Positions 3-37,657 of a stretch of DNA of 64,000 nt are shown here, in pieces (positions within the stretch are counted from its first letter, which is position 1; each line of letters begins with the position of its first letter). Source of the DNA: Solirubrum puertoriconensis (GTDB lineage: Bacteria; Bacteroidota; Bacteroidia; Cytophagales; Hymenobacteraceae); the NCBI RefSeq assembly GCF_001483135.1, contig NZ_LNAL01000005.1:186001-250000 (forward strand). The letters run 5' to 3'. A program made the translations under genes and the position numbers. The notes below the pieces were generated by a model. The model saw only the letters and a list, made by a program, of their open reading frames with translations, did no database searches and had not been told where the DNA came from.

Positions 3-2033
3 GTAGCTCTGTTTCTCTACCGCTCCAACCTGCTTGGGGCCGATTTGCGCCTCACCAACTACGCCGGCGGCAATACCTCCTGCAAAATTACCGCTACCGA
101 CCCCGTGACGGGCGAGCCGGCCGACGTGATGTGGGTAAAAGGCTCGGGCGGCGATATTGGCACGCTCACCAAAGCCGGCTGCGCCAACCTCTACGTAGAC
201 AAGCTGCACGCCCTGAAAAACCGCTACCGCGGCCTCGCGCACGAAGACGAAATGGTGGCTTTGTTCGACCACTGCCTGTTCGACCCGAAGTGCGCTGCGC
301 CTTCCATTGATACCCCGCTGCACGGCCTGCTGCCCTTTAAGCACATCGACCACCTGCACCCCGATGCCCTCATTGCCATTGCCGCCAGCAAAGACGGCGA
401 GCAGATTATGAAGGAAATCTGGGGCGACACAATGGCCTGGATTCCGTGGCAGCGTCCCGGTTTCGACCTGGGGCTGCAGCTCGAGGCTACCGTGAAAAAC
501 AACCCCGGCATTCGGGGCGTCATTCTGGGTGGGCACGGCTTGTTTACCTGGGGCGAAACCTCCTACGAGTGCTACCTGAACACGCTGGAGGTAATTGAGC
601 AGGCGGCTGCTTACCTGCAGGAGAACTTCGGCCAAAAGCGCCCGGTGTTCGGCGGGGTTAAGCTGCAAAACGGCCCCGATGCGGCTACCCGCCGCAAGTA
701 CGCCGCCGAAGTGCTGCCTACCCTGCGCGGCCTGGCCTCGAGCCACCGCCGCATGCTGGGCCACTACACCGACGATGCCCGCGTGCTGGAGTTTGTGAAC
801 TCGCACGACTTGCCGCGCCTGGCCCGGCTGGGCACCTCCTGCCCCGACCACTTCCTGCGCACCAAAATCCGGCCGCTGGTGCTCGACCCGGCTCAAATGC
901 ACCAGCCCCTGCCGGCCGTGAAGGAGTACCTGCAGGAGCAGTTCGAGGCCTACCGCCAAGATTATACCGCGTACTACGAGCGCTGCAAGCACCCCGATTC
1001 CCCGGCCCGCCGCGACCCTAATCCGGTGGTGATTTTGTGGCCCGGCGTGGGCATGTTCACCTTCGCCAAGGACAAGCAGACGGCCCGGGTATCAGCCGAG
1101 TTCTACACCAACGCCATCAACGTGATGCGCGGGGCCGAGGCCGTGTCGGAGTACCAGGGCCTGCCCGAGCAGGAAGCCTTCGACATTGAGTACTGGCTGC
1201 TCGAAGAAGCTAAGCTGCAGCGCATGCCCAAGCCCAAGTCGCTGTCGGGCCAGGTGGCCTACGTGACGGGCGGCACCGGCGGCATTGGCAAGGCTATCTG
1301 CGAAGTGCTGCTGCAAAACGGCGCCTGCGTAGTGGCCGTCGACCGCGACCGGCTCGAGGAAACCCAAACCGAGCTGCGCCAGCGCTACGGCAAAGACCAC
1401 GCCCTCACCGCGGCCATCGATGTAACGAGCGCCGAGGCCATTGCCAGTTCGCTGCAACAAGCCGTGCTGCAGTTTGGCGGCGTCGATGTGGTGGTGAACT
1501 GCGCCGGCCTGAGCATCTCTAAGCCCCTAGGCGAAACCAGCCAGGCCGACTGGGACTTGCTGCAGGATGTGCTGGTGAAAGGCCAGTTCCTGGTAACGCA
1601 GCAGGCCGTGGAAATTCTGCGGGCGCAGCAGCTGGGCGGCCACGTGGTAAACATCGCCAGCAAAAACGGCTTGGTAGCCGGCCCCAACAATGTGGGCTAC
1701 GGCACCGCCAAAGCAGCCCAGCTGCACATGTCGCGCCTGCTGGCTGCCGAACTGGGTCCCGATAAGATTCGCGTGAACACCGTGAACCCCGACGCCGTGC
1801 TGCGCGGCAGCAAAATTTGGGAAGGCGACTGGGCCGCTGGCCGCGCCAAGGCCTACGGAGTTTCGGTAGAGGACCTGCCCGCTCACTACGCCAAGCGCAC
1901 CCTGCTCGGCGAAGAAGTACTGGCCGAAGACATTGCCAAGGCGGTGCTGGTCTTCGTGGATGGCTCGCTAAGCAAATCGACCGGCAACGTGCTGAACGTA
2001 GACGGCGGCGTAGCCATGGCTTTTGTGCGCTAA
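3..2033 (+). CDS. rhaEW: Bifunctional L-rhamnulose-1-phosphate aldolase / L-lactaldehyde dehydrogenase (5' end outside window)
   Basis: The frame is open from base 3 and encodes aldolase sequence (LYRSNLLGAD) before the first possible start, a TTG at 45, so the gene begins left of the window. Roughly the first 400 residues counted from 45 are a class II aldolase domain (NYAGGNTS, GGHGLFTWG). From about residue 400 there is a short-chain dehydrogenase with the nucleotide motif TGGTGGIG and the catalytic YGTAK near residue 551. Fusions of this kind cleave L-rhamnulose-1-phosphate to DHAP and L-lactaldehyde and oxidize the aldehyde to L-lactate in the cytoplasm. The rhamnose isomerase and kinase downstream and the lactate genes beyond them support this role. 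Assignment to rhamnulose rather than another deoxyketose phosphate rests on context. Confidence 0.93.
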   Translation, partial: VALFLYRSNLLGADLRLTNYAGGNTSCKITATDPVTGEPADVMWVKGSGGDIGTLTKAGCANLYVDKLHALKNRYRGLAHEDEMVALFDHCLFDPKCAAPSIDTPLHGLLPFKHIDHLHPDALIAIAASKDGEQIMKEIWGDTMAWIPWQRPGFDLGLQLEATVKNNPGIRGVILGGHGLFTWGETSYECYLNTLEVIEQAAAYLQENFGQKRPVFGGVKLQNGPDAATRRKYAAEVLPTLRGLASSHRRMLGHYTDDARVLEFVNSHDLPRLARLGTSCPDHFLRTKIRPLVLDPAQMHQPLPAVKEYLQEQFEAYRQDYTAYYERCKHPDSPARRDPNPVVILWPGVGMFTFAKDKQTARVSAEFYTNAINVMRGAEAVSEYQGLPEQEAFDIEYWLLEEAKLQRMPKPKSLSGQVAYVTGGTGGIGKAICEVLLQNGACVVAVDRDRLEETQTELRQRYGKDHALTAAIDVTSAEAIASSLQQAVLQFGGVDVVVNCAGLSISKPLGETSQADWDLLQDVLVKGQFLVTQQAVEILRAQQLGGHVVNIASKNGLVAGPNNVGYGTAKAAQLHMSRLLAAELGPDKIRVNTVNPDAVLRGSKIWEGDWAAGRAKAYGVSVEDLPAHYAKRTLLGEEVLAEDIAKAVLVFVDGSLSKSTGNVLNVDGGVAMAFVR

Positions 2034-2064
2034 CAGTTTAGCGCGGTTTTCTTTAGTGGTTTGG

Positions 2065-2098
2065 AAAAAAGCAGGCTGGTTTTCGGCCTGCTTTTTTT
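2065..2098 (+). terminator. Rho-independent terminator after the aldolase/dehydrogenase gene
   Basis: A GCAGGC/GCCTGC stem with a short loop is flanked by an A tract on the left and seven T on the right. It lies about 30 bp after the stop codon. The A and T tracts can extend the stem. Confidence 0.85.
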
Positions 2099-2139
2099 GT
2101 ACCTGCTGCGCCCTGGATGCTGCTCGTTGCCTTGTCAAT

Positions 2140-2151
2140 GAGAACGTTCCC
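2140..2151. promoter_or_regulatory. Candidate operator GAGAACGTTCCC
   Basis: A 12-bp near-palindrome with core GAACGTTC and one mismatched pair. It lies 8 bp upstream of the -33 element of the promoter before the GntR gene. GAACGTTC-centred palindromes are typical of sugar-responsive repressors of the LacI group. The cognate factor is not visible in this window, so the assignment is inference. Confidence 0.4.
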
Positions 2152-2158
2152 GGCATCG

Positions 2159-2189: not shown

Positions 2190-2318
2190 GGGTTAGCGCA
2201 GATTTGGTAAGTTTTAGTGCTCCCAACCCTCCACCACCACTGTGAACTGCTTGCAGCATTGGCTCTCTTCTCAACCCGCGAGAGATTGTGGGTGCTGCCA
2301 TGCTGCAATGGCTTGGCG

Positions 2319-2330
2319 GTAGCATGCTAC
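2319..2330. promoter_or_regulatory. Perfect palindrome GTAGCATGCTAC in the leader of the GntR gene
   Basis: A 12-bp perfect palindrome 40 bp upstream of the GntR start codon and downstream of the predicted transcription start. Short palindromes with outer GT/AC are typical GntR-family operators, so autoregulation by the downstream protein is possible. The same leader holds a 9-bp inverted repeat TTGCAGCAT (2251-2259) / ATGCTGCAA (2300-2308). Confidence 0.4.
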
Positions 2331-2370
2331 AGCCAGCCGGGTTCACCTCTATTGCTTCCGCGTACCTGGC

Positions 2371-3384
2371 ATGTATAAGCTGCAGTTCAAGCCCTTTGAC
2401 AAAACCCCCAAGTACAAGCAGATAGTGCAGTCGGTTATAACCGACATCGAGCGCGGCGTACTGAAACGGGAGGATCAGCTGCCCTCCATCAGCGAGCTGA
2501 GCGCCGAGTACTACCTGGCCCGCGACACCGTCGAGAAGGCCTACCGCGAGCTGCGCGCCCGGGGCTTCATTACCTCGGTGCAGGGCAAGGGCTACTACGT
2601 GCAGGCCACCGACGCAAGCAAGCTGAAAATCCTGCTGGTTTTCAACAAGCTCAGCTCCTATAAAAAGATCATCTACTACGCCTTCCTGAACGCCCTGGGT
2701 GACCGGGCCACGGTGGATCTGCAGATCCACCACTACAGCGCCAAGCTGTTTCAGGACATCATGGAGAAGTGCCTCGGCAAGTACAACCACTACGTGGTGA
2801 TGCCGCACTTTACGCAGGACACCGAAAAGGCCGATTATAAAGCTATCCTGAACTCCATCCCGACGGGCGAGCTGGTGCTGCTCGACAAGGATATTCCGGA
2901 CCTAAAGCACCCCTGCCTGAGCGTGTACCAGGACTTCGACAAGGACATTTTCGGGGCACTGGAGGGCGTTACGGATTTACTGCAGAAGTACCACAAACTG
3001 GTACTGGTGCTGCCCAGCGTGGGCAATAACTACCCCGTCGAAATTGCCTGGGGCTTCCGTACGTTTTGCGGCAAGCACGGCAAGGAGTTTTCGATTAAGG
3101 AAAACGCTATGAATGAGGTGCTGGAAGCCGGTACCGCCTATATCGTGGTCGAAACCACCGACCTGGCCGAGCTCATCAAAAAAGTGCGCCAAACGCCCTA
3201 CCTGCTCGGCCGCGAAATCGGCATTCTGTCGTTTAACACCAGCACGCTCAAGGAGCTGCTGGGCATCACGGTTATTTCTACGGACTTCGAGGCCATGGGC
3301 CAAACCGCTGCCAATATGCTGCTGCAAGGCCGGCAAGAGAAAGTGAAAAACCCTTTCTACACCATTCGGCGAGGGTCGTTGTAA
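2371..3384 (+). CDS. GntR-family transcriptional regulator with sugar-sensor domain
   Basis: 337 residues. The first 75 or so form a GntR winged helix-turn-helix (LPSISELSAEYYLARDTVEKAYRELRARGFI). The remainder, from about residue 85, resembles a LacI/periplasmic-binding-protein sensor rather than the FadR or UTRA effector domains. Regulators of this build commonly sit in Bacteroidota L-rhamnose and L-fucose operons. The gene lies between the aldolase/dehydrogenase and isomerase genes, each boundary marked by a terminator, so it is probably transcribed from its own promoter at 2159-2189. The inducer, perhaps L-rhamnose or a phosphorylated intermediate, is inferred from position only. Confidence 0.88.
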   Translation: MYKLQFKPFDKTPKYKQIVQSVITDIERGVLKREDQLPSISELSAEYYLARDTVEKAYRELRARGFITSVQGKGYYVQATDASKLKILLVFNKLSSYKKIIYYAFLNALGDRATVDLQIHHYSAKLFQDIMEKCLGKYNHYVVMPHFTQDTEKADYKAILNSIPTGELVLLDKDIPDLKHPCLSVYQDFDKDIFGALEGVTDLLQKYHKLVLVLPSVGNNYPVEIAWGFRTFCGKHGKEFSIKENAMNEVLEAGTAYIVVETTDLAELIKKVRQTPYLLGREIGILSFNTSTLKELLGITVISTDFEAMGQTAANMLLQGRQEKVKNPFYTIRRGSL

Positions 3385-3395
3385 GGCCCCATGTT

Positions 3396-3436
3396 AGCGG
3401 CTCCTCTGCGTTAGGCACGGGAGCCGCTGTTTTTTG
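3396..3436 (+). terminator. Rho-independent terminator after the GntR gene
   Basis: A perfect 9-bp stem, AGCGGCTCC (3396-3404) with GGAGCCGCT (3420-3428), is followed by G and a run of T. It separates the regulator from the isomerase-kinase operon, which therefore needs a promoter in 3437-3595. A TACTTTGC string at 3508-3515 is a possible -7 element there, but no convincing -33 element was found. Confidence 0.85.
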
Positions 3437-3595
3437 CAGGCGACACATTTCTCGCAATTAGTGCTCTTAGCAGGAGAGTTCAGAAGAGTTCGGGGCCGAG
3501 GGCGCTCTACTTTGCTTACCGTTAGCTATGTCCCATTCGGCTACCTAGGATTTGCCCAATGCAGCGCCTAGGTGGTTGCTACCCATCGCCTGCTT

Positions 3596-4876
3596 ATGAT
3601 TGACTCCCAACGCATCCACGACTTCAACCAAAGCCACTTGGATGAGCACCGGTTTCGGCTGGGCTACGTGCGCGACCTGCTGGCTCGCCGCGGTCTCGAC
3701 GCGCAGCACATCATCCAGCAGCTGGTTGCGTTTCAGGTAGCCATCCCGAGCTGGGCGCTGGGCACGGGCGGCACGCGCTTCGGCCGCTACCCGCTGGGTG
3801 GGGAGCCGCGCAGCCTGGAAGAAAAGATCCAGGACGTAGGCCTATTGAACCAGCTCAACGGCTCGTCAAATGCTATTTCGCTGCACATTCCGTGGGACAT
3901 TCCGGAGGATGTGCCCGCACTGCAGCAGCTTCTGCAGGAAAAAAAGCTGACCATCGACTCGGTCAACTCCAACACCTTTCAGGATCAGCAAGAGCAGGCT
4001 TACTCCTACAAGTTTGGCTCGCTGTGCCACACCGAGCAGGCGGTGCGCGAGCAGGCCATTCAGCACAATGTTGAGTGCGTGCGCTACGGCGAGCAGCTAG
4101 GTGCCAAAACGCACACCGTGTGGCTGGCCGATGGCTCTAACTTCCCCGGTCAGCAGCACTTCCGCCGCGCCTACCAGCGCACGCAGGAGTCGCTGGCAGC
4201 TATCTACGAAGCGCTGCCCTCCGACTGGACAATGCTCATTGAGTACAAGCCCTACGAGCCGCACTTCTACTCCATGATTATCCCCGACTGGGGCACCTCC
4301 TACTCGCTGTGCCAGCAGCTGGGTCAGCAGGCGCAGGTGCTCGTCGACCTAGGCCACCACCTGCCCAACACCAACATCGAGCAGATTGTGGGCCGCCTGC
4401 TGCACTTTGGCCGCCTAGGTGGTTTCCACTTCAACGGCTCGATGTACGGCGACGACGACCTGACCACGGGCAGCATGAAGCCCTTCCAGCTGTTCCTGAT
4501 TTTCAACGAGCTGGTAGATGGCGCGCAGGACGCGGCGGTGCAGAACCCCGCCGTGGCGTACATGATCGACGCAAGCCACAACACCAAAGACCCGCTCGAA
4601 GACCTGCTGCAATCCGTCGATAACATCCTGGGTGCTTACGCCAAAGCCCTGCTCGTCGACCGCACTACCCTAGGTGAGCTGCAGCAACAGAACGACGTGG
4701 TGCGCGCCGAGGAGCTGCTGCGCGACGCTTTCCTGACCGACGTGCGCCCCTTGGTGCAGGAAGCGTACCGCCAGGCCGGCGGGGTGCTCGACCCCGTTTC
4801 GGCTTACCGCACGCAACGCATTCGCGAACAACTTATTCAGCAACGCGGCAAGCTTAGCCTCTCGACCGGACTATGA
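3596..4876 (+). CDS. rhaI: L-rhamnose isomerase
   Basis: Converts L-rhamnose to L-rhamnulose in the cytoplasm with divalent metal ions. The start is placed at the ATG at 3596 (426 residues); a GTG at 3572 would add eight residues with no family support. The length and sequence fit the RhaI type (Pseudomonas stutzeri-like) rather than E. coli RhaA. Recognisable metal/substrate segments are the glutamate in EYKPYEP, the aspartate in DLGHHLPNTNIEQ, the histidine in FHFNGS and the aspartate in MIDASHN. The stop overlaps the start of the kinase gene by four bases (ATGA), so the two are translationally coupled. Three CCTAGG sites lie inside the gene. Confidence 0.93.
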   Translation: MIDSQRIHDFNQSHLDEHRFRLGYVRDLLARRGLDAQHIIQQLVAFQVAIPSWALGTGGTRFGRYPLGGEPRSLEEKIQDVGLLNQLNGSSNAISLHIPWDIPEDVPALQQLLQEKKLTIDSVNSNTFQDQQEQAYSYKFGSLCHTEQAVREQAIQHNVECVRYGEQLGAKTHTVWLADGSNFPGQQHFRRAYQRTQESLAAIYEALPSDWTMLIEYKPYEPHFYSMIIPDWGTSYSLCQQLGQQAQVLVDLGHHLPNTNIEQIVGRLLHFGRLGGFHFNGSMYGDDDLTTGSMKPFQLFLIFNELVDGAQDAAVQNPAVAYMIDASHNTKDPLEDLLQSVDNILGAYAKALLVDRTTLGELQQQNDVVRAEELLRDAFLTDVRPLVQEAYRQAGGVLDPVSAYRTQRIREQLIQQRGKLSLSTGL

Positions 4877-6201: not shown

Positions 6202-6202
6202 A

Positions 6203-6379: not shown

Positions 6380-6381
6380 AC

Positions 6382-9248: not shown

Positions 9249-9254
9249 TGCCAC

Positions 9255-10043
9255 CTAGGCGTTAGCCAACGCCCGATCGAGGTGCACGTAGCCGCCATCC
9301 ACGTGAATGATCTGGCCGGTGGTGTGGCTGCTGCGTTCCGAGAGCAGAAAGGCTACTGTGTTGGCAATTTCCTCAGGCGTAGTCATGCGGTTGCCCAGCG
9401 GAATTTTACCGCTGATTTCGCGCAGCTTTTCTTCGGGGTTGGGCAGGGTCTGAATCCACGACTCGTACTGCGGCGTCCAGCTCTCCGCTACCACCACGGC
9501 ATTCACCCGAATCTGGTACTTCAGCAGTTCCACCGCCCACTCGCGCGTGAGGGCGTTGCGGGCACCGTTGGCCGCGGCGTAAGCCGAGGTGTTGCCCTGC
9601 CCGGTTTCGGCTGTTTTGGAGGTGATGTTGACGATGGCGCCGCGGTGCTTTATCAACTCGGGCAAGGCGTAGTGCGCCAGCAGGTAGTAGTGCACCACGT
9701 TTTTGTGCAGCGAGGCCATAAAGCTCTCGTACGAGCCGTGCTCCAGCCCTACCCCGTCGTTGGCGCCGGCGTTGTTTACCAGCCCATCAATGCGGCCGAA
9801 CTGCGCGATTACTTGCTGCACGGCTTGCTCGCAGGCCTGCGGGGCGGATAGCTCGGCGGGTACTTGCCCGGCTTTTCCGCCCGCGGCTTCAATACTGGCC
9901 ACCACCTGTTGGTTGTCGGCCTCGTTCCGACCTAGGATAACCGGCACGGCGCCCTCGGCGGCCAGCACGCGCACGATGCCTTCCCCAATACCCTTCGCCC
10001 CGCCGCTCACCACAATTACCTTGTTCTGCAGCTCCAGATTCAT
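9255..10043 (-). CDS. SDR oxidoreductase, probable L-fucose (6-deoxyhexose) dehydrogenase with YxxxN active site
   Basis: 262 residues of classical short-chain dehydrogenase fold: GGAKGIG for NAD(P) binding near residue 15, NNAG near residue 89, and the catalytic serine in NITSKTAE. The expected YxxxK is Y-A-A-A-N here, so asparagine replaces the catalytic lysine. The sequence resembles L-fucose dehydrogenases that oxidize L-fucose to L-fuconolactone, and the neighbours encode the next steps. It is the last gene of the minus-strand operon, 15 bp after the lactonase gene. Its TAG stop is embedded in CCTAGGT. Rhamnose 1-dehydrogenase is a possible alternative. Confidence 0.82.
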   Translation of the reverse strand: MNLELQNKVIVVSGGAKGIGEGIVRVLAAEGAVPVILGRNEADNQQVVASIEAAGGKAGQVPAELSAPQACEQAVQQVIAQFGRIDGLVNNAGANDGVGLEHGSYESFMASLHKNVVHYYLLAHYALPELIKHRGAIVNITSKTAETGQGNTSAYAAANGARNALTREWAVELLKYQIRVNAVVVAESWTPQYESWIQTLPNPEEKLREISGKIPLGNRMTTPEEIANTVAFLLSERSSHTTGQIIHVDGGYVHLDRALANA

Positions 10044-13932: not shown

Positions 13933-13970
13933 CAAAAACAACGGAGCCCCGACCTAGGGCCAGGGCTCCG
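13933..13970 (-). terminator. Rho-independent terminator after the GH28 gene
   Basis: On the minus strand CGGAGCCC pairs with GGGCTCCG (8 bp; plus-strand 13963-13970 and 13942-13949) and is followed by TTGTTTTT. The loop contains CCTAGGT. It sits between the pectin cluster and fucP, so the fucose operon should have its own promoter. Confidence 0.8.
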
Positions 13971-15396: not shown

Positions 15397-15609
15397 AGCC
15401 GAAGTAGTTAGTGGCGAAACCTAGGGCGGAGGTAGCTCTGGCTGGCAGCTTGGCAGGCCCGTTGGGCGCAAGTCGCCGCCACTTCCCGATGCCGGCGCTT
15501 GGTATACCAGCCACCAGCCAGAGCGATTCCCACGGTGCCAATTTGGGCGTTGCCGTAGCCTATACCCTCCCGCACCCTCCTGCTATCGGGTACTTTTTGC
15601 CGGCTGCAC

Positions 15610-15924
15610 CTAGGACTGATGAAACACCCGGCGCAAGGGGGTAACTATCGGCGAGTTGTCGGGGTTGGTTTCCATCAGGTCTGCCATGTAGGCCCACCAG
15701 CGTTGCATCACCTCCTGCATCGGCAATTCATCAGCTGTGTGGTTTGGAATGCGCTTCTGAATCGCGAAAAGTTTGCCGCTGGCCTCGTCGAGGAAAATGG
15801 AGTAGTCGCGGATGCCCGCCTGCTGCAGCACTGCCGACAACTCGGGCCAGATTTCTTCGTGCCGGCGCGGGTACTCGACCGCTACCCCCGGCCGCAGCTG
15901 CATGGTAAAGGCTACTTCTTCCAT
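15610..15924 (-). CDS. rhaM: L-rhamnose mutarotase
   Basis: 104 residues from the ATG at 15924, the same size as E. coli RhaM; the longer open frame to 16140 has no family similarity. RHEEIWPEL, DYSIFLDE and WWAYMADLME contain the His, Tyr and Trp residues of the sugar pocket. It interconverts alpha and beta L-rhamnose and speeds supply to the isomerase. Its location among pectin enzymes ties the minus-strand cluster to the rhamnose genes at 1-6 kb. The TAG stop is embedded in CCTAGGT. The 213 bp between its stop and the GH28 start hold no gene; an 11-bp inverted repeat (15435-15445 / 15514-15524) is the only structure seen. Confidence 0.93.
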   Translation of the reverse strand: MEEVAFTMQLRPGVAVEYPRRHEEIWPELSAVLQQAGIRDYSIFLDEASGKLFAIQKRIPNHTADELPMQEVMQRWWAYMADLMETNPDNSPIVTPLRRVFHQS

Positions 15925-16037
15925 TCGGTTTAGAGCATGGGTTAGGTACACCGCCCAAGGCTCAGCCCAGTCAGCGTGAGCTGCGGCCGCGCCTAGGTGG
16001 CGATGATGTAGAATGTACCGTCGGCTGAACCCGAAGC

Positions 16038-21605: not shown

Positions 21606-21668
21606 GGGCGAAGAAGTCGGAGGAAAGAAACCGGGCTGCCCTGCCGCGGCGGGGCAGCCCAAGCGCAC

Positions 21669-22868
21669 CTAGGATTTGGCGGCGGCCTTATCGAGGTTGT
21701 CGTTCAGCTTGCAGAGCTCGGTACCGGCCAGCAAAAAGCAGCCGAGGCCGTAGTCCTCAAAGTCGGGCTTGCTGGTGTAGGTAACCGGCTGGCCGTCCTT
21801 GGGCTCTTTGCCGGTGCCCTGCACGTAGCCTAAAAAGCCGGTTTTGTGCACGCCCTCCGAGGCCATTGCCTGCCAGGCTTTGGTAACAATGGGCTGGTAC
21901 TGCTTGGCATCGAGCAAACCCTGGTTGATGCCCCAGGCCATGCCGTACACAAACAAGGCGGTGCCCGTCAGCTCCTTGCCGCCGAAGTGCGTGGGGTCGT
22001 GCAGGCTCACGTTCCAGAACCCATCGGGGCGCTGCAGCGGCGGCAGGGCCTTCATCATCGTCAGGTACATCTGCTCGTACTCCTGCCGGTGCGGGGCATC
22101 CTTCGGCATAATTTCGAGCACGCGCACCATGGCAGCCACCACCCAGCCGTTGCCGCGGCTCCAGTAGCAATCCTCACCGTTGGGCTCTTTGTAGGGCGGC
22201 ACAAAGTCCTTGTCGCGCCACCACAGGCCATCCTGCGCGTTGAAGAGGCCGTTGCCGCCGTGCCTGGTTTTGGCGTAGTCGTAGAGCTGGTACATCTTCT
22301 CGAAGTACCGGTTGTCCTGGTACATCACGCCGAGGCGGGCAAACACCGGCATGGCCATCTGCAGGGCATCAATCCACCACCAGTCGTCGGCTTGCTCGGT
22401 TTGCATCATCAAATCGATGCTGGCTTTGATGTCGTGAATGCGCTCGGGCTTGGGGTCGATGGCGTGGAGCGCGAGGTAGGTTTGGCCGCAGCACTGGTTG
22501 TCGGCGTTGCGGGTTTCGATGCCGCGGTTGAGGCCCCACTTGTGCTTTTCGCCCCAATCCACGGCGTAGTCGTAGTAGCGCTTTTGCTTATCGATGCCGT
22601 GGAGTGCCATTAGCCCCTCGTAGTACACGGCGCGCGTCCAGATGTTGCTGGGGCGTGTTTTGTTTGTCACGATCTCCTTGCCCGTATCCGGCCACTTCTG
22701 CATAAAGTAGTCGTTGGCCAGCGTCATGGTGCGCAGCAGGTCTTTCTTCTTGGGCAGGCGCTTGGCCGCGGCGGGCAGGGCCGGCAGCAGCAGGCCCAGG
22801 CCCAGCACACCTAGGGTATGCCCGAAGGCGCGGCGGCTCATGGCTTGCGGAGTAAAGGCGGGTATCAT
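21669..22868 (-). CDS. Glycoside hydrolase family 105/88, unsaturated rhamnogalacturonyl hydrolase
   Basis: 399 residues. MSRRAFGHTLG with a hydrophobic run is a twin-arginine type signal (a second ATG at 22841 would start right at it). The alpha/alpha-barrel body carries WWWIDALQMA, whose aspartate is the catalytic residue of the YteR type, and RGNGWVVAAMVRVLE. It removes unsaturated galacturonate from the ends of lyase products. The gene lies 54 bp after PL22. Its TAG stop is embedded in CCTAGGT. Confidence 0.9.
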   Translation of the reverse strand: MIPAFTPQAMSRRAFGHTLGVLGLGLLLPALPAAAKRLPKKKDLLRTMTLANDYFMQKWPDTGKEIVTNKTRPSNIWTRAVYYEGLMALHGIDKQKRYYDYAVDWGEKHKWGLNRGIETRNADNQCCGQTYLALHAIDPKPERIHDIKASIDLMMQTEQADDWWWIDALQMAMPVFARLGVMYQDNRYFEKMYQLYDYAKTRHGGNGLFNAQDGLWWRDKDFVPPYKEPNGEDCYWSRGNGWVVAAMVRVLEIMPKDAPHRQEYEQMYLTMMKALPPLQRPDGFWNVSLHDPTHFGGKELTGTALFVYGMAWGINQGLLDAKQYQPIVTKAWQAMASEGVHKTGFLGYVQGTGKEPKDGQPVTYTSKPDFEDYGLGCFLLAGTELCKLNDNLDKAAAKS

Positions 22869-22922
22869 CGGCTTGGGGTGGTTGGGTTAGTGTCGGGGTG
22901 GTGGCGGCGCAGGCTGCAGCAC

Positions 22923-24155
22923 CTAGGAGGCAGGCTTGGCGAGTTCGACAGCGTACACCTGCGACTGCCCTTCGAAGTTGGCCCGGAAGATGATCCACTT
23001 GCCATCGGGCGAGAAGTGCACGTTGGGCTCGAGCTGGTAATTGTGCTTGCCCAGGTTCACCAGCTTCTCGGCTTTAAACTTGTCGCCCTCGGGCCGAAAC
23101 AAGTAAATCCACTGGCCGTTGGGCGAGTGCGCCACCGAAGTGGGGTAGCCACCGTCGCCGGCAAACAGCTTCTGGTCGGGCGAGGAGGTGTAGTGCACCG
23201 ACCACTCGTCGCGCGTCAGCTCGTACTTGCGCTGCTTGCCGGTTTTCAGGTCGGTACCGGTTACGAAGAAGGTAGCGCCGCGCGGCAGCTGGTGGTCAAA
23301 CCAAATGGTTTTGCCATCGGCGGCAAACCACTCGTGGCCGGCAATTTCGCGCTCCATGGTGCGCTTGTGCACCTGCGTTACCTGCTTGGTTTTGGTATCG
23401 ATCGTCCAGATGCGGTCGACCAGCTCCCAGGGGCCCTCGTGGCAGAACATGAGCAGCCGCGCATCGGTGGGCGAAAACTGCACGTGGTTCAGCCAGGCGT
23501 TGTCGGTGAACAGCTTGGTGAGCTGCCCGCCCTGCGTGCTGATGGTGAACAGGGTGCGCGGCAGCTTGGCGTCGTAGATGCGCCGGAAGTAGTCCTTCTT
23601 CTCGGGGTACTGGCGGTAAATCTCCTTTTCGGCGTCGCTGCCCCAGGCGCCGCCCAGCCGGGTTTCGTCGGCGTTGAGGGTGGTGATGCTGGCCTTGAAA
23701 TCGGCCGTAAAAACGTACACCAGCCGCGTTTTGCGGGTGTCAACGTGGGTGGCGTACACCGTGTCGGCGGTTTGGTAGAACACCTCGCGGCGCTTGGGGG
23801 CCACAATCTCGCCGCTCACCTGCCGGAAGTAGCGCGTAAGCGGCTGCACCTCGCGGGTTTTCAGGTTGAGTTTGCGCAGCTGCTTGCCCTGCTCATCGGT
23901 GTGGTAGTACACCATCCAGTCGCCGCCGGCGCCGCTCACGAAGGGCCGGTTATGAAAGTAAAAGCTTTGGTTGGCGCCATCGGCGGGCGTAAGCCGCACC
24001 ACGCGGTGGCCGGTGTCCGCATCGAGCCACTCGGTGGGCATGGCCGGCTGGCTGCCGGTGGCCAACTTGGCTTGGCCGTGGGCTTGCCCGGCCAGCAGCA
24101 AGCTGCCGCTACCTAGGGCCAACACTAAACTTTTGCGGGTAGCAGCTCGAAACAT
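22923..24155 (-). CDS. Oligogalacturonate lyase, polysaccharide lyase family 22
   Basis: 410 residues. A signal peptide precedes a seven-bladed propeller fold. Diagnostic segments are HNRPFVSG, LNHVQFSPTDARLLMFCHEG with the PWELVDRIW that follows, and LEPNVHFSPDGKWI; the histidines bind the catalytic Mn2+ in the family. It splits short oligogalacturonides to unsaturated monomers by beta-elimination. Classical Ogl is cytoplasmic, but this copy appears exported. The gene follows CE4 by 39 bp. The TAG stop is embedded in CCTAGGT. Confidence 0.88.
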   Translation of the reverse strand: MFRAATRKSLVLALGSGSLLLAGQAHGQAKLATGSQPAMPTEWLDADTGHRVVRLTPADGANQSFYFHNRPFVSGAGGDWMVYYHTDEQGKQLRKLNLKTREVQPLTRYFRQVSGEIVAPKRREVFYQTADTVYATHVDTRKTRLVYVFTADFKASITTLNADETRLGGAWGSDAEKEIYRQYPEKKDYFRRIYDAKLPRTLFTISTQGGQLTKLFTDNAWLNHVQFSPTDARLLMFCHEGPWELVDRIWTIDTKTKQVTQVHKRTMEREIAGHEWFAADGKTIWFDHQLPRGATFFVTGTDLKTGKQRKYELTRDEWSVHYTSSPDQKLFAGDGGYPTSVAHSPNGQWIYLFRPEGDKFKAEKLVNLGKHNYQLEPNVHFSPDGKWIIFRANFEGQSQVYAVELAKPAS

Positions 24156-30929: not shown

Positions 30930-33263
30930 ATGCAAATTCGGAAAAATTTGCTGCTGGTAGTACTGTATACCTACAGTATTGTGGCCAGCGCGCAAAACCT
31001 TGGGTTGGTCCGAGGAACGCTCAAGGACAAATTCGGCGCGGTAGTGCCTTCGCTTACCGTAAGGCTGGAAGGTACACCGCTGGGAGCGGTAACCGACGCG
31101 GCCGGCGGTTTTGCCATCCGCAACGTTCCGCCGGCCTCGTACACGCTGGTGGTTACCGGCATCGGCTACAAGCCGCTGCAACGCACCGTTGCGGTGGCGG
31201 CCGGGCAGGAAACGGTGGTTGCCTTAACGGTGGAGGAGGCCTCGGTGGATATTGCCGGGGTAACGGTGGTGGGCCGCTCGGCGGTGCAGGAAACCAACCG
31301 GCAGGCGTTCAACGTGACGGCCGTTGATGCCAAGCAGCTGTACAACACCACGCTGGACCTGGCCGGCGCGCTCGACCGCGTGGCCGGCATTCGGGTGCGG
31401 GAGTCGGGCGGCGTGGGCTCCAACTTCAACCTGTCGCTCAACGGCTTCTCGGGCAACCACGTCCGCTACTTCATCGACGGCATCCCGATGGATGGCTTTG
31501 GGTCGTCGTTCCAGATCAACAACATCCCGATCAACGCGGCCGAGCGCATTGAAGTGTACAAGGGCGTGGTGCCTATCTGGCTCGGCTCCGATGCCCTAGG
31601 TGGCGCCATCAACATTGTAACCGGCAACCGGCAGCGCAACTACGTCGATGCCTCCTATTCCTTCGGCTCGTTCAACACGCACCGCAGCGTCGTGAATGCG
31701 GCCGCAACCTCGCGCAGTGGCCTGACGGCGCAGATCAGCGCGTTTCAAAATTACTCCGACAACAACTACCGGGTGAAGGTAGACGCAGCCGACATCAACA
31801 CCGGCGCCTACGAACCTGGCAAGCGTGTGCGACGCTTTCACGATACCTACCACAACGAAACGCTGATTGCCAACGTGGGCGTGGTGGACAAGCGCTTCGC
31901 CGATAAGCTGTTGCTGGGCGTGACCGTCGGGAAAAATTACAAGGAAATCCAGACCGGGGCGCGCATGGTATCGGTGTTTGGGGGCTGGCACCGCCGCGGC
32001 AACATCCTGATGCCTACCCTCAAGTACAAAAAGGAGAACCTGGTGAAGGGTCTCGATGTGACCCTCAACGCCAACTACAACCTGGGCAGCGAGCAGAACA
32101 TCGACACGATGAACGTGCGCTACGACTGGCTGGGCAACTACAAGCGCATTGGCACCAGCGGCGAACGGTCGCGGAGCCTGTACAAGTACCGCAACAACAA
32201 CGGCCTGGCCACGGCCATGCTTAACTACCGCCTGGGTGAGCACCATGCCCTGGCGCTGAGCAACGTCTTCAATACCTTCAACCGCAAGGGCGCCGACGCC
32301 CTGAACCCGGCGGTGGTGGATCAGCCCCTGAAAACGCAGAAGAACGTACTGGGGCTGGGCTACTCCTACAACGTCAGCGACGACTGGAGCGCGTCGGTGT
32401 TCGGCAAGCACATCACGCAGCACAACGTGGTGGGGGCGGGCGCCGGCAAGGCTACCACCAACAAGCTCGGCTACGGCGTGGCGGCCACGTACTTTGTGCG
32501 GCCCGAGCTGCAGCTGAAAGGCTCCTACGAGCTAACGAACCGCATGCCGGAGGCGCAGGAGATTTTCGGCGACGTGGAAAACCAGGAGGGCAACCCCGGC
32601 CTGCGCCCCGAAAAAAGCAACAACGTCAACCTGGGGCTGAGCTACAACTACGCCATCGGCCCCGACGACCGCCTGCTGGTAACGGCCAACGCGGTGTACC
32701 GGCACTCGAGCAACTTCATTTACAACCGCCTGAACAATAATCAGTCGCGGCTGGTGGCTGATAACCGCGAAGGCGTACGTACGGTGGGCGCCGATGCGGA
32801 GGTGCGCTACTCGCACAAAACCCGGTTTTCGGCCGGGGCCACGCTTACCTACCAGTACCTGCAAAACATGCAGCGGTACGAGCCGGGCTACACGGGCGTG
32901 AGCCCGGTGTACCACGACCAGTTGCCGAACATTCCTTACCTGTTCGGCAACGCCGATGCCTCGTTTCTGCTGCCCGAATTCGGCGGCAGCGGCAACAGCC
33001 TCAGCATGGGCTACAACCTGCAGTACGTGCACGAATTCTACCTGTACTGGCCCAGCCGCGGCGGCGACAAGCTCAACATTTCGCAGCAGCTAAGCCACGA
33101 CCTGAACGTGGTGTACAGCCTGAAAAACGGCCGCTACAACCTCGGGCTCGAGGGCCGCAACCTCGCCAATGCCCTGCTCTACGACAACTTCAGCCTGCAG
33201 AAGCCTGGGCGTGCTTTCTACGTCAACTTCCGCTGCTTCTTCAACAAAACCACCAACCGGTAG
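30930..33263 (+). CDS. TonB-dependent outer-membrane receptor (XusA-like, xenosiderophore)
   Basis: 777 residues. A signal peptide (LLLVVLYTYSIVASAQ) is followed by a CarboxypepD_reg-like beta-sandwich (residues about 25-110) and a plug domain (VAGIRVRESGGVG, IEVYKGVVP). A 22-strand barrel ends in an aromatic residue pattern (FYVNFRCFF). The next gene encodes a DUF4374 lipoprotein and the operon ends with a PepSY reductase. That is the order of Bacteroides XusA-XusB-XusC, which takes up siderophores made by other bacteria. The substrate here is inferred, not shown. Confidence 0.85.
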   Translation: MQIRKNLLLVVLYTYSIVASAQNLGLVRGTLKDKFGAVVPSLTVRLEGTPLGAVTDAAGGFAIRNVPPASYTLVVTGIGYKPLQRTVAVAAGQETVVALTVEEASVDIAGVTVVGRSAVQETNRQAFNVTAVDAKQLYNTTLDLAGALDRVAGIRVRESGGVGSNFNLSLNGFSGNHVRYFIDGIPMDGFGSSFQINNIPINAAERIEVYKGVVPIWLGSDALGGAINIVTGNRQRNYVDASYSFGSFNTHRSVVNAAATSRSGLTAQISAFQNYSDNNYRVKVDAADINTGAYEPGKRVRRFHDTYHNETLIANVGVVDKRFADKLLLGVTVGKNYKEIQTGARMVSVFGGWHRRGNILMPTLKYKKENLVKGLDVTLNANYNLGSEQNIDTMNVRYDWLGNYKRIGTSGERSRSLYKYRNNNGLATAMLNYRLGEHHALALSNVFNTFNRKGADALNPAVVDQPLKTQKNVLGLGYSYNVSDDWSASVFGKHITQHNVVGAGAGKATTNKLGYGVAATYFVRPELQLKGSYELTNRMPEAQEIFGDVENQEGNPGLRPEKSNNVNLGLSYNYAIGPDDRLLVTANAVYRHSSNFIYNRLNNNQSRLVADNREGVRTVGADAEVRYSHKTRFSAGATLTYQYLQNMQRYEPGYTGVSPVYHDQLPNIPYLFGNADASFLLPEFGGSGNSLSMGYNLQYVHEFYLYWPSRGGDKLNISQQLSHDLNVVYSLKNGRYNLGLEGRNLANALLYDNFSLQKPGRAFYVNFRCFFNKTTNR

Positions 33264-33271
33264 CCACCCCC

Positions 33272-34486
33272 ATGAAGCTCAGAACTACCCTTGCCGCGCT
33301 GTGCGCCGCGGCCGCTTTAACCGCCTGCGACAACAACGACACCGCCACCACGCCCGACAACGCGGGTAACTACATTCTGACGGTGACGCCGGCCGCCTCC
33401 ACCGGCGTGGCCGACTACCTGCTGAACGCCCGCACGCTGGAATCGGGCACTATCTCGACGGCGGGCAACGGCATTGAGCAGGACGGCACCTACCGCTACT
33501 ATGTAACGCACAACAACAAGTTCTTCAGCATGCTCTACGGGCAGGGCAACCCCGGCGCCGTAACGGCCTACGGCAACCAGGGCGGCAAGCTCACGCGCCT
33601 CACCAACTTCCAGACGGAAACGGTTCAGGCCTTTGCGCCGGTGCAGAACGACTTGCTGCTGTTCAAGATTTCGCGCAGCCTGGCCTCGCCTACCTCCAGC
33701 TGGTACAAGGTGAACACCAACAGCCTGCTGATTTCGGCCGAAGGCAGCACCAACACGCTGAACCTGACGCGCAACGGCGAGCTGGCGCATTTCAGCTGGC
33801 TAAAGCAGGTGGGCAACAACGTGTTTGCGCCGTACTTCTGCATCAACGACAACCGCTTTAACACCGCCTACCCCGACAGCGCCTGGATTGCGGTGTACAA
33901 CTACGCCGACATGCGGGTGGAGAAGATCATTCGCGACAACCGCACGAGCTTTATCGGCCGCTACTTCACCGACGGCCTCTCGGTGGTAGAAAACGGCGAC
34001 GTGTACGCGTTTTCGGCGGCTGTGGCCGCTACCGGCGGCATGCTCAGCTCCACCAAGCCCTCGGCCATTACGCGCATCAAGGCGGGCACCACCGAGTTCG
34101 ACCAGTCGTACTACCTGAACTTCGAGTCGATCAGCGGCGGGATGAACATCACCAACTGGCTGTACCTCGGCAATAATACCTACCTGGTGGGCGCCACCAC
34201 GCGGGCCGAGAAGGGCGCGTACGTGGCCGGCCTGAACGTGGGCATCCTGAACGTGGCCGACAAAACCTTTGCCCCCGTAGCCGGGCTGCCGGCCAAGGCC
34301 GATATCCTGAGCCTGACCACCAACAACTACACCCCGAAAGACGGCCGCACCGCCTACCTAGGCGTGAACCTGAAGGACGGCACCAGCTACGTGTACAAGA
34401 TCGACGCCAGCACCAAAACGGCCACGCAAGGCCTGAAAGTAGAAGGCGGCACCATTACGGCGGTGCAGTACCTGGCCGGCGAGTAA
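33272..34486 (+). CDS. DUF4374 surface lipoprotein (XusB-like siderophore-binding)
   Basis: 404 residues with a lipobox (ALTAC near residue 18). The body is a repetitive beta-propeller of the DUF4374 family (ISGGMNITNWLYLGNN, TPKDGRTAYLGVNLKDG). In Bacteroides the homologue XusB is an exposed lipoprotein that captures ferric enterobactin-type siderophores for its partner receptor. Only 8 bp separate it from the receptor gene, so the two should be co-expressed. Confidence 0.85.
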   Translation: MKLRTTLAALCAAAALTACDNNDTATTPDNAGNYILTVTPAASTGVADYLLNARTLESGTISTAGNGIEQDGTYRYYVTHNNKFFSMLYGQGNPGAVTAYGNQGGKLTRLTNFQTETVQAFAPVQNDLLLFKISRSLASPTSSWYKVNTNSLLISAEGSTNTLNLTRNGELAHFSWLKQVGNNVFAPYFCINDNRFNTAYPDSAWIAVYNYADMRVEKIIRDNRTSFIGRYFTDGLSVVENGDVYAFSAAVAATGGMLSSTKPSAITRIKAGTTEFDQSYYLNFESISGGMNITNWLYLGNNTYLVGATTRAEKGAYVAGLNVGILNVADKTFAPVAGLPAKADILSLTTNNYTPKDGRTAYLGVNLKDGTSYVYKIDASTKTATQGLKVEGGTITAVQYLAGE

Positions 34487-34496
34487 GCTCTCGGCA

Positions 34497-34532
34497 GCCC
34501 CGGCCAGCCGCTGCGTAGCCGCCGGCCGGGGC
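34497..34532 (+). other. Intercistronic GC hairpin
   Basis: A perfect 9-bp stem GCCCCGGCC / GGCCGGGGC lies just after the DUF4374 stop, without a T tract, in the 121-bp gap before the DUF4198 gene. It could stabilise the upstream message or attenuate downstream expression. Confidence 0.5.
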
Positions 34533-34607
34533 CTGCTGCTCGCAAACAACGCCCGGCCTCCGCGGAGCCGCGCCCCCAAACAACTAGTAACCAACAGCAC
34601 GCAACAG

Positions 34608-35321
34608 ATGAAATTCGTTGTTCTTTTCCTGGCGGTAGTAGCCGCTTACCTGGTGGGCCTGCCCACGGCCGCCGCCCACGCCGTTTGGATTGAAAGCGCG
34701 GCCAAGGCAACCAAAAACAAGGCCCACGAGGTGAAAATCATCTACGGCGACTACGCCGAGGGCGCCATCGAGCCAACAGCCAAGTGGTACTCCGACCTGA
34801 AAACGCTGGAAGTGTGGGTGGTGAGCCCCTCGCAGCAGAAAACCAAGCTGACGCTGACCGACGCCGGCACCCACCTGACGGCCTCCTTCCTGCCCGAGGC
34901 CGACGGCCTGTACTACGTAACCACCGTGCACGCCACCAAAGAGCTGGGCGGCACCACCAAGTACGAGTTTTCGTCGGTAGCGCCGGTGCTGGTAGGCAGC
35001 GCCCCGCCCGCGCTGGCGGCGCCGGCTTCGCCGCTGGCCATTGTGGCCGCGCCCAAAGCCTACAAAGCAGGCGCGCCAGTGGAGGCGCAGGTGTGGAAAG
35101 CGGGCCAGCCTTTTAAAAATGGCAAGGTGGAGCTGATGTCGCCCGAAGGCTGGGTGAAAACCGTGAAAACCGACGCCGACGGCAAAGTGGTGTTTACGCC
35201 CAAACTCAAAGGCACCTACGTGCTGGAAGCCTCCGACTACCAGGAGCAAGCCGGCGAGTGGCACCAGAAACCCTACACGCATTTCTGGCAGGGCTCCACT
35301 ACCCGCATTCTCATCAACTAA
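34608..35321 (+). CDS. DUF4198 (NikM-like) periplasmic metal-binding protein
   Basis: 237 residues. Signal peptide cleavage after PTAAA would leave a mature N-terminus beginning with histidine (HAVWIE), as in DUF4198/NikM-type proteins where that histidine is suspected to bind metal. The rest is beta-sandwich, with a C-terminal carboxypeptidase-regulatory-like segment (KVELMSPEGWVKTVKTDADG). DUF4198 genes accompany iron, nickel or cobalt receptors. Here it may handle metal released in the periplasm. Confidence 0.8.
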   Translation: MKFVVLFLAVVAAYLVGLPTAAAHAVWIESAAKATKNKAHEVKIIYGDYAEGAIEPTAKWYSDLKTLEVWVVSPSQQKTKLTLTDAGTHLTASFLPEADGLYYVTTVHATKELGGTTKYEFSSVAPVLVGSAPPALAAPASPLAIVAAPKAYKAGAPVEAQVWKAGQPFKNGKVELMSPEGWVKTVKTDADGKVVFTPKLKGTYVLEASDYQEQAGEWHQKPYTHFWQGSTTRILIN

Positions 35322-35346
35322 CTCCGCCAAGCACGCTTCACAACCC

Positions 35347-35673
35347 ATGATCAGCACCCTTTTTCTGCTGCAGCTGCTGGCGTTTCGGCTGTGGTACCTG
35401 GCTTCGCCGCAGGCAAAGCTGCAGCCGGTAGGCTATGCCGCCTACGCCTTGCAAAACCCGCAGCAGGCCCGGGCGGTGGGCACGCTGCTGGCCGCCGCTA
35501 CTGCCGTGGCCCTAGGTATGCACTGGGGCTGGATGACCGGCCTGAGTGCCTGGCTGGTGGGGCTGATGGGCGTGGGCGGCCTGGTGGTAGCCTTGGCGCC
35601 TTTCCGCTACTTCGGCGTGTACTCGGTGCTGGCTCTGTACGGCGTTTTCCTGGGCCTGGAAATCCTTTTCTGA
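35347..35673 (+). CDS. Small membrane protein, DUF3325-like
   Basis: 108 residues with three to four hydrophobic helices and the pattern GWMTGLSAWLVGL, then LAPFRYF. Size, topology and position next to a DUF3649-like and a PepSY gene resemble the DUF3325 proteins of proteobacterial siderophore-reductase operons. It starts 25 bp after the DUF4198 gene and ends 3 bp before the next. Function unknown. Confidence 0.72.
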   Translation: MISTLFLLQLLAFRLWYLASPQAKLQPVGYAAYALQNPQQARAVGTLLAAATAVALGMHWGWMTGLSAWLVGLMGVGGLVVALAPFRYFGVYSVLALYGVFLGLEILF

Positions 35674-35676
35674 GCT

Positions 35677-35955
35677 ATGCCCGCCAACAAGAAATACCTG
35701 ACCAAGTCGCCCTGGCTTCGCTTTTCCAAAATCATGGCCGGCACGGTGGGCGGCTACGCGGTAACGATGAGCCTGCACTTGCTGCTGGCCAAAATATTTC
35801 CGCGCGAAAACGTGGTGGCCACGGCGTTTTTCACGGGCTACCTCCTGTGGGTGTTGCTGCTGCTGTGGGCCTTTCTGGCCAAAAACACCTGGCAGGTTTG
35901 GCTTACCTACCTAGGGCTGACGGTGCTGTTCTTCCTGCCTTACCTGATTTCGTAG
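35677..35955 (+). CDS. Small membrane protein, DUF3649-like
   Basis: 92 residues with three transmembrane helices (SKIMAGTVGGYAVTMSLHLL, TAFFTGYLLWVLLLLWAF, WLTYLGLTVLFFLPYL). The GGYA after a basic N-terminus and the WAF-A..TW.VW stretch match what is known of DUF3649, a companion of PepSY siderophore reductases. It begins 3 bp after the previous gene and ends 4 bp before the PepSY gene. Family call is by eye. Confidence 0.72.
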   Translation: MPANKKYLTKSPWLRFSKIMAGTVGGYAVTMSLHLLLAKIFPRENVVATAFFTGYLLWVLLLLWAFLAKNTWQVWLTYLGLTVLFFLPYLIS

Positions 35956-35959
35956 CTTC

Positions 35960-37657
35960 ATGGACAACCGGAAGTACAACATCTACTTTCACACCCATAC
36001 CGTCAGCGGCATTATCGTGTGCGTACTGCTGTACGTGGTGTTCTTTGCTGGCTCATTTGCCTTCTTCAAGGACGACCTCGCCGCCTGGCAGAAGAACAGC
36101 TCGTACGTGGCCAACCGCGCCACCACGCAGCGCAATTTCAACGGGCTGCTCGATTCGCTGGCCAAGCACCACAACCTGCGCGGGCGCGACATTGAGTTCT
36201 TCCTGAACAGAATCGGCATGGCGGGCTACGTATCGATGCTGCCCTCGAACGACAGCCTCGTGCGCAAGGCCGCCGCGCAAGCCCTTGCCAAGGCCAAAAC
36301 CCAATCCGCCGCCGAAAAGCAGAAGCACGGCCGGGGGCGCGGCCGCGGCAAAGGCGGCGACGCGGCTTATTTCTCGTACGATTTTGCCCAGCGAAAAGCC
36401 GTGGAGTACGAGAAGGGCTACGACATGGGCGAGTTTATGTACCGGCTCCACTTTCTGGCCCCGCTCAACGCCATCCCGCTTCCCATCAACCTAGGGGCGC
36501 CGTTTGGCTACCTGCTGGCCGGCATCGTGTCGTTTATCTTCCTCTTTGCCCTGGTTACGGGCCTGCTGCTGCACTGGAATAAAATCGTTTCCAACTTCTT
36601 CACCTTCCGGCCCTGGAGCAAGTGGAAAACCGTGTGGACGGACCTGCACACCGCCTTGGGTGTGCTGCAGTTTCCGTTTCAGCTCCTCTTTGCCATTACG
36701 GGCATCGTGCTTATCGTCAACTCGGTGCTGCTGGCTCCCTTTGCCAGGTTGGCCTACAACGGCGAGAGTGAGCAGCTGTACGCCGACCTGCAAACCACCG
36801 ACAATACCAAGTACGAATACAGCTACACGCCCTTAGGTGCCCCGTTCGACCTGAACCGGCTGGTGGCGCAGGTAGAGCATAAATGGGCCGGCAGCGAGCT
36901 GACGCGCGTATTCATCCGTAACTACCAGGATGCCAACATGCACGTTATCGTGCTGGCGGCCCCACCTGCCAAGGCCAGCTTTTCGGGCACCGGCAAGCTG
37001 GTTTACCGCGTGCGCGACCAGCACATTCTCCGCGAAGCCATGCCCACCGAGCACTCTACCTACGTGAGCAAGGTGCGCAGCCTGATCTACCACCTGCACT
37101 TCGGCGATTTTGGCGGCCGGCCGCTGCGCCTCATGTATTTCGTGCTGGGCGCAATGGGCTGCGTGGTGATTATTTCGGGCATTCTGATTTGGCTGGTAGC
37201 GCGCGACAAGACCAGCACCCCCGCCCGGGAGCGGGCGTTCAACTTCTGGACGGCCAACATTTTTTTGGCCATCAGCCTGAGCATGCTGCCCGTTACGGCC
37301 TTCACCATGATTGCCCTGCTGTTCGTCGGCAGCCCGGAGCAGTCGGATATCTTCCGGCTGTACTTCTACTCATGGCTGGCCCTAGGTGCCTACTTCATTG
37401 TCCGCCAAAACATTACCCTCACCAACCGCCAAACCCTGATGCTCTCGGCGGGGCTGTGCCTGCTGCTGCCCCTGCTCGATGGCGTGGTGCGCAACAACTG
37501 GTTCTGGAACACCTACGCCAAGGGGCAGTTCGATATTTTGTTTGTCGACCTGCTGTTTCTGGGTCTGGGCGGCATCAGCTCTGCTGTGCTCCTTCGGGTG
37601 AGGAAACGTCAAGCCGCACCGGCAGCTCCGCTGGTAACCGCAGCTGCCGGGGGGTGA
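35960..37657 (+). CDS. PepSY-associated inner-membrane protein (XusC/FoxB-like siderophore-iron reductase)
   Basis: 565 residues. A PepSY_TM architecture: one helix at residues 12-35, a large periplasmic loop, a helix pair near 180-205 and 235-260, a second periplasmic loop, then several helices to the end. Conserved histidines (FHTHTVSG near the start, RLHFLAPL, DLHTALG, YHLHFGDFGG) are candidate heme ligands. The role is reductive release of iron from siderophores at the inner membrane. The first loop carries an unusual HGRGRGRGKGG insertion near residue 125. It is the last gene of the uptake operon. Confidence 0.87.
   Translation: MDNRKYNIYFHTHTVSGIIVCVLLYVVFFAGSFAFFKDDLAAWQKNSSYVANRATTQRNFNGLLDSLAKHHNLRGRDIEFFLNRIGMAGYVSMLPSNDSLVRKAAAQALAKAKTQSAAEKQKHGRGRGRGKGGDAAYFSYDFAQRKAVEYEKGYDMGEFMYRLHFLAPLNAIPLPINLGAPFGYLLAGIVSFIFLFALVTGLLLHWNKIVSNFFTFRPWSKWKTVWTDLHTALGVLQFPFQLLFAITGIVLIVNSVLLAPFARLAYNGESEQLYADLQTTDNTKYEYSYTPLGAPFDLNRLVAQVEHKWAGSELTRVFIRNYQDANMHVIVLAAPPAKASFSGTGKLVYRVRDQHILREAMPTEHSTYVSKVRSLIYHLHFGDFGGRPLRLMYFVLGAMGCVVIISGILIWLVARDKTSTPARERAFNFWTANIFLAISLSMLPVTAFTMIALLFVGSPEQSDIFRLYFYSWLALGAYFIVRQNITLTNRQTLMLSAGLCLLLPLLDGVVRNNWFWNTYAKGQFDILFVDLLFLGLGGISSAVLLRVRKRQAAPAAPLVTAAAGG

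Follow-up and report, generated by a model that had tools for sequence, protein, structure and literature searches.

Why should a single short word, ACCTAGG, recur so often in and around the genes of one stretch of bacterial DNA? The stretch is a window of 64,000 nucleotides from Solirubrum puertoriconensis (bases 186001-250000 of contig C5; genome G000 in our set, 4.80 Mb). An earlier note, made by eye, had reported 34 copies of the core CCTAGG in 1-25.0 kb plus 30.9-37.7 kb of the window, 31 of them extending to ACCTAGG or its complement CCTAGGT. Both counts are exact, and the whole window holds 36 and 32, where shuffles average 16.6 and 5.4 and not one in 100 attains the observed counts. 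Within the note's own 31.8 kb, which were chosen post hoc, 34 sites compare with 7.1 expected from a first-order Markov model and 10.6 from base composition, bearing out the claimed excess over chance at 3.2- to 4.8-fold. The best explanation is that ACCTAGG is a lineage-specific watermark of self DNA, and a sequence-specific drive of some kind probably spreads and keeps it.

The genome-wide count proposed in the earlier note gave 5,823 copies of ACCTAGG in G000 (2,861 and 2,962 on the two strands; about 1.2-1.3 per kb), against 72 (33 + 39) of the reversed control word. The near-equal strand counts contrast with GGGTAGG in the same assembly, which is skewed 452 to 221. Contigs C2, C3, C6, C7 and C8, sampled over 360 kb, hold 489 CCTAGG where 70-79 are expected (Markov orders 2 and 1). 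A maximum-order Markov test masks the word, since its sub-words are inflated too; order 2 reveals it. The note had named equality with Markov expectation as the outcome that would speak against it, and what we found is a very large enrichment, both over the Markov models and over relatives.

The word is not spread evenly over the assembly. Nine stretches of contigs C3, C6, C7 and C8 hold 18-33 CCTAGG per 20 kb. On C5 (259 kb), eight 20-kb stretches (160 kb sampled) hold 10 in all, the final 9 kb hold none, and the 20 kb directly upstream of the window hold 17. C5 looks like a conjugative plasmid, as it encodes TraG, TraJ and, by a match short of the model cut-off, a RepM-like replication gene; it appears to carry about 55 kb of motif-rich, chromosome-like DNA. 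This piece includes genes for sugar use, among them an aldolase/dehydrogenase, a carbohydrate kinase and a rhamnosidase (Pfam).

Among 204 genomes of the family Hymenobacteraceae, eight carry 5,096-8,746 copies of ACCTAGG (G000, G004, G007, G030, G036, G088, G104 and G123), and the remaining 196 have at most 666 each; within the genus, three of eight genomes are rich. G000, G004 and G007 group as a supported clade in a 24-row atpA tree. The sister group of this clade (G002, G003, G005, G006 and Hymenobacter gummosus; support 91/85) is motif-poor, as is the next relative, G001, the status of H. gummosus being read from one 21.6-kb locus with 0 sites. The other carriers fall into two further clades, G030/G036/G123 and G088/G104, where G030 is taken to be Hymenobacter cavernae CGMCC 1.15197 from its identical atpA. 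Where they align, the motif-poor relatives share about 72-86% DNA identity. Several separate gains would explain the pattern most simply, with losses possible, and we infer that ACCTAGG was gained on the branch leading to the G000/G004/G007 clade.

With five pooled control hexamers for comparison, chromosomal sites of G000 are identical in G004 at 155/224 (0.69 vs 0.42 for controls) and in G007 at 149/219 (0.68 vs 0.48), and at 0/193 in five low relatives, where controls reach 0.20-0.38. Across the window and the stretch preceding it, the word is identical in low relatives at 2 of 103 comparisons. Between G000 and G030, the word is the same at 13 of 36 aligned sites, where controls give 0.11, and some association persists after conditioning on Leu-Gly, the dipeptide most often encoded by the word (10/18 vs 7/32, p = 0.03). 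The two sets of sites are likely separate gains, and shared ancestry with G030 is possible. After the same conditioning, G000 sites show no association with those of G036, G123, G088 or G104 in what are small tables.

The window's clade has as its unit an asymmetric 7-mer, ACCTAGG, and not a palindrome, although its core CCTAGG is palindromic, because most sites in G000, G004 and G007 carry exactly one A flank (T when read on the other side). This holds for 278 of 308 noncoding sites, where independence of the flanks predicts 154, and for 596 of 666 coding sites, where it predicts 332; the opposite flank is mostly G or C. H. cavernae comes nearer to a palindrome, with 32 of 60 sites being ACCTAGGT, as flank independence predicts. 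The earlier note had likened the word to HIP1, a highly iterated palindrome (HIP) of cyanobacteria. That likeness survives for genome-wide presence, lineage specificity and density, and fails for the palindrome, since the clade has an asymmetric heptamer and other genomes have plainly non-palindromic words.

Placement is permissive. ACCTAGG occurs at 2.82, 3.63 and 3.08 per kb outside genes in G000, G004 and G007, and at 1.11, 1.09 and 0.98 per kb inside them, a 2.5- to 3.3-fold difference. Convergent gaps are the densest (6.0-6.7 per kb), followed by co-directional (2.4-3.7) and divergent ones (2.0-2.5). Inside genes, 319 of 343 sites in the G000 sample read xxC CTA GGx and encode Leu-Gly, and the third frame would be a stop; the word contains 21 of the 125 TAG stops of that sample. 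Genes were called with a home-made open reading frame (ORF) scorer, so frames near gene starts are uncertain. In the window, the claim that every in-gene site lies in one frame and encodes Leu-Gly stands for 24 of 26 sites. The other two encode Pro-Arg. One, 13918, may precede the true start of an ORF that was called too long; the other, 41268, lies beyond the region covered by the earlier note. Terminator hairpins were rejected as a general cause, as few noncoding sites have stems of at least 7 around them (G000, 9 of 145; G004, 5 of 82).

How could such a word accumulate? Codon bias and one-chemistry mutation bias are excluded as full explanations, as set out below, and a process that reads the whole word is favored. 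Uptake-sequence drive and, under Elhai's model, methylation-directed repair are the two processes known to act in this way. A machine of the cell would recognize the whole word and favor DNA carrying it, such that copies accumulate by molecular drive and individual copies need no function of their own. The most likely step would be that cells import and recombine self DNA in preference to other DNA, in the manner of DNA uptake sequences (DUS) and their dialects; import would run through a machine other than the type IV pilus, with ComEC, which is found in 30 of 30 genomes, as the inner-membrane channel. We put this uptake-type version of the drive forward tentatively, at somewhat short of an even chance.

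Several known systems offer points of comparison. Chi sites are short, asymmetric, over-represented and strand-biased relative to replication. ACCTAGG shares the first three properties, but shows no strand preference and is nearly absent from sister genomes; polarity of the Chi or FtsK-orienting polar sequence (KOPS) type is ruled out by the absence of strand bias. CCTAGG is also the recognition site of AvrII, BlnI and XmaJI (PMC1939737), and, compared by recognition site alone, it differs from a restriction target in having been accumulated here, not avoided. The DNA uptake sequences of Neisseriaceae (PMC3630211) and the uptake signal sequences (USS) of Pasteurellaceae are likewise non-palindromic words in thousands of copies, on both strands and in permissive positions, with several words per family, and ACCTAGG is low on the conjugative-type plasmid, a comparison that concerns one plasmid contig. 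They differ in length (9-12 bases, against about 7-9 here), in that the words described here are on or off between sister clades and known from genomes alone, and in that no type IV pilus ATPase exceeds the cut-off here. Of the two processes, the genomic signs (asymmetry, dialects, permissive placement and low numbers on a plasmid of conjugative type) look more like uptake sequences. By strict membership, the word is neither a HIP, for lack of a palindrome in the clade, nor a DUS, as no pilus machine was found. In another member of the Bacteroidota, Riemerella columbina, transformation is inhibited by the organism's own competing DNA and not by equal amounts of foreign DNA, according to PMC7965970.

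A number of observations weigh against an uptake sequence. The k-mers listed in the R. columbina paper (PMC7965970) are AT-rich only, with no clear uptake word, and no report of transformation in Hymenobacter was among the matches listed by our literature search. PF00437, the family of type IV pilus and type II secretion system (T2SS) ATPases, exceeds the cut-off in none of 25 genomes and in 13 of 14 controls (pilins were not searched); one sub-threshold match was seen, in G019 (E 8.9e-4). Genomes with none of these words have ComEC just as often. A mobile enzyme would account for the patchiness between sister clades no less well than a core uptake machine. Variants one base off at positions 2-7 total 1,428 against 1,284 expected (1.1x), so that near-misses are hardly enriched, and a short, sharply read word looks more like an enzyme site. 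The missing pilus ATPase, the patchiness and the sharply read hexamer core all speak against an uptake system in its classical form.

ACCTAGG is not the only such word in the family. A word scan on samples of family genomes found CCCTAGG to be dominant in G072 (47 vs 3.1 expected), GGCCTAG over-represented in G041 and G043, GGGTAGG in G019, G034, G044 and G075, and TATACCT in two Pontibacter (49 vs 4.2 expected in one); ACCTAGC occurs beside ACCTAGG in G030, G036 and G123. Within the samples, each of GGGTAGG, GGCCTAG and TATACCT is abundant in a group of its own, and CCTAGG-centred words overlap one another, with GGCCTAG at a moderately elevated 6-10 per 20 kb in G088, G104 and G072. The CCTAG-centred words are alike; GGGTAGG and TATACCT are less similar. 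GGGTAGG is abundant in 14 of the 204 family genomes (2,284-6,650 copies), none of them an ACCTAGG carrier. The cut-off of 2,000 was our choice, the next genome below it being G061 with 1,660, and the ACCTAGG carriers G088 and G104 have 1,414 and 1,333. A 20-kb sample of G087 holds 1 GGGTAGG although the genome holds 4,498, which argues against a uniform spread. Intermediate counts of 2,284-3,815 in G053, G099, G106, G127 and G047 may mark genomes that are now gaining or losing the word.

None of the six words reaches 10 per 20 kb in nine of 15 usable sampled stretches, nor in any of the six named Hymenobacter loci except that of H. cavernae. When loci L095-L174 with a length of at least 12 kb were scanned, a word at z >= 11 was seen only in L098, L101 and L102, which does not establish breadth beyond the family. 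Among the matches listed by our literature searches, which excluded subscription papers and preprints, none described these words in Hymenobacter or Pontibacter. It is conceivable, though we would not bet on it, that the Hymenobacteraceae have an undescribed system of self-DNA recognition with fast-switching specificity, perhaps uptake without type IV pili, that has written at least four distinct words or word groups into the genomes of related species: a CCTAG-centred one (ACCTAGG, CCCTAGG, ACCTAGC), GGCCTAG, GGGTAGG and TATACCT.

Three side observations concern words of other kinds. TATTACAA-type words are strongly over-represented in the 20-kb sample L249 (G067), which may reflect a local repeat. 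The control word GGATCCA is near-absent (0-1 copy per strand) in G023, G037, G075, G082, G084, G091 and G121 and present in tens to more than 100 copies in other family genomes, a second on/off pattern that is perhaps BamHI-type avoidance. CTAG exceeds its first-order expectation in the samples of G036 (324 vs 239) and G123 (296 vs 251) and is avoided in low relatives; CCTAGG explains only part of this excess (34 and 33 sites).

Among the other explanations, the one that fares best is a HIP-type origin, which we regard as possible and rather doubtful. To our knowledge, HIP1 has had no accepted function since the 1990s. HIP1 (GCGATCGC) and the alternative HIPs of cyanobacteria are lineage-specific, at about 0.5-2.5 copies per kb, with alternative words in some genomes (PMC4390886). 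In the Elhai 2015 model, the word is marked by a methyltransferase, and mutations that create it are kept through methyl-directed repair or strand discrimination. A density of the order of one copy per kb and the sporadic alternative words of the family are like those of HIPs, and the sharp hexamer core with few near-misses and the presence of CCTAGG cores in three separate clades also fit. The asymmetry of ACCTAGG in the window's clade and the non-palindromic words of other species do not. Matches to PF02384 and PF07669 occur in seven of the eight ACCTAGG carriers, all but G000, the PF07669 match of G004 being below the cut-off. However, PF02384 is as common in non-carriers (15 of 17 other genomes), which have the same methyltransferase families as often.

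Overall, PF01555 was found in 14 of 22 genomes, PF00145 in 11 of 24, PF02384 in 22 of 25 and PF07669 in 27 of 30 (24 over the cut-off). The genome sets differ between these searches, those for PF01555 and PF00145 leaving out G043, G044, G075 and G034, and masked genome stretches are not searchable, such that a gene could be missed. None of the four families is present in all eight carriers or tracks the word (PF02086 was not searched). The profile searches gave no PF00145, PF02384 or PF07669 match in G000 or in the GGGTAGG carrier G019, and no PF01555 or PF00145 match in G004. The only PF01555 enzyme of G000 is solitary and lies on C4, a 12.5-kb mobilizable plasmid (L065 5493-6386), with CcrM as its best solved relative by sequence (E 1e-20). 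C4 is probably circular, as the same protein stretch is found at both ends. The solitary methyltransferase that the earlier note had suggested thus finds no support in these families.

A second alternative, which we consider improbable, is organism-level selection for sites of a nucleoid or repair protein needed about every kilobase. The word is kept above control words and placed permissively, as such sites might be. However, its spacing is random, as for uniform placement (CV, the coefficient of variation, 0.95-1.02 in three 180-kb runs), which rules out even spacing for repair or compaction. Within the 180-kb runs we saw no consistent orientation bias. Moreover, C5 largely lacks the word, relatives at the identities given above manage without it, and thousands of copies, some of them protein-changing, would each need a selective benefit.

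The third alternative, a context-dependent mutation or single-chemistry repair bias of the Vsr type, is very unlikely. We examined sites with at least two low relatives aligned (43 chromosomal and 27 on C5, in the window plus the 20 kb before it), of which 29 and 21 gave a consensus; the direction of change is inferred from the relatives. The commonest change, from G to A at position 4 of CCTAGG, is what such a bias could produce. However, C>A, G>C, A>C and other changes are needed too, transitions as well as transversions, and 14 of 29 chromosomal and 16 of 21 C5 sites differ from the relatives at two or more bases, the C5 sites at two or three. This mix of changes rules out a single chemistry.

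The word seems to have altered proteins in the G000/G004/G007 clade, because Leu-Gly at the motif is less often Leu-Gly in low relatives and because the clade has a Leu-Gly excess. In comparisons with low relatives, the relative also has Leu-Gly at 144 of 253 motif-coded pairs and at 527 of 665 other Leu-Gly pairs, with several relatives pooled per site. With one relative per site, the figures are 21/35 and 64/82 (p = 0.07), and in the C5 stretch 14/27 and 75/86 (p = 0.0003). Within the clade, Leu-Gly is kept in 300 of 310 comparisons for motif-coded pairs and in 521 of 570 for other pairs. Leu-Gly stands at 1.08-1.13x expectation in G000, G004 and G007 and at 0.88-0.92x in five low genomes; it shows no clear excess in the five other carriers (0.94-1.02x), which argues against a general protein effect.

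A bias for codon pairs or for the Leu-Gly dipeptide, the other outcome named in advance by the earlier note, has next to no chance despite the Leu-Gly reading of most in-gene sites, and is rejected because the word is denser outside genes. ACCTAGG also supplies TAG stops, and TATACCT in Pontibacter uses five of the six phases.

Within the window, the motif-rich, chromosome-like stretch runs from 1526 to 37386 and contains the 34 CCTAGG sites. The first 25 kb or so are largely collinear with the motif-poor relatives G002/G006, and identity to motif-poor relatives is 75-86%. By site positions and gene calls, two sites (3543-3573) lie immediately before and overlapping the start of gene 3572-4876, which also has an ACCTAGG encoding Leu-Gly at 4347-4353 (+). 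Sites at stop codons had been noted earlier, and three do supply the TAG of minus-strand genes: 9254-9259 for gene 9255-10043, 21668-21673 for gene 21669-22868 and 22922-22927 for gene 22923-24155. An intergenic ACCTAGG at 13952-13958 (+) lies in the loop of a hairpin spotted by eye, and three intergenic sites (15420, 15609 and 15992) fall within 15419-15998. Six further heptamers, all in-frame Leu-Gly by the gene calls, occupy 31595-37387. From 37700 to 64000 the window is motif-poor, with 2 CCTAGG in 26 kb, a GC content of 0.64-0.69 (4-kb steps) and partial matches to a Hymenobacter plasmid. This end is part of the conjugative-type plasmid C5, whose conjugation genes lie elsewhere on the contig. 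A umuD/umuC-type polymerase V pair lies at 48298-50131, inside a match of about 84% to a plasmid of Hymenobacter sp. YIM 151858-1.

With related genomes at roughly 80% DNA identity whose copy numbers are either about 5,800 or below 100, and with several words in one family, Hymenobacter is a natural experiment, and the on/off pattern makes the cause mappable through gene content, methylomes and uptake across related species. ACCTAGG may act as a mark of residence, in which case DNA without the word, such as most of C5, would be a recent arrival. If the underlying machine is an uptake system, it would mean that a lineage lacking type IV pilus ATPases imports DNA in a sequence-specific way.

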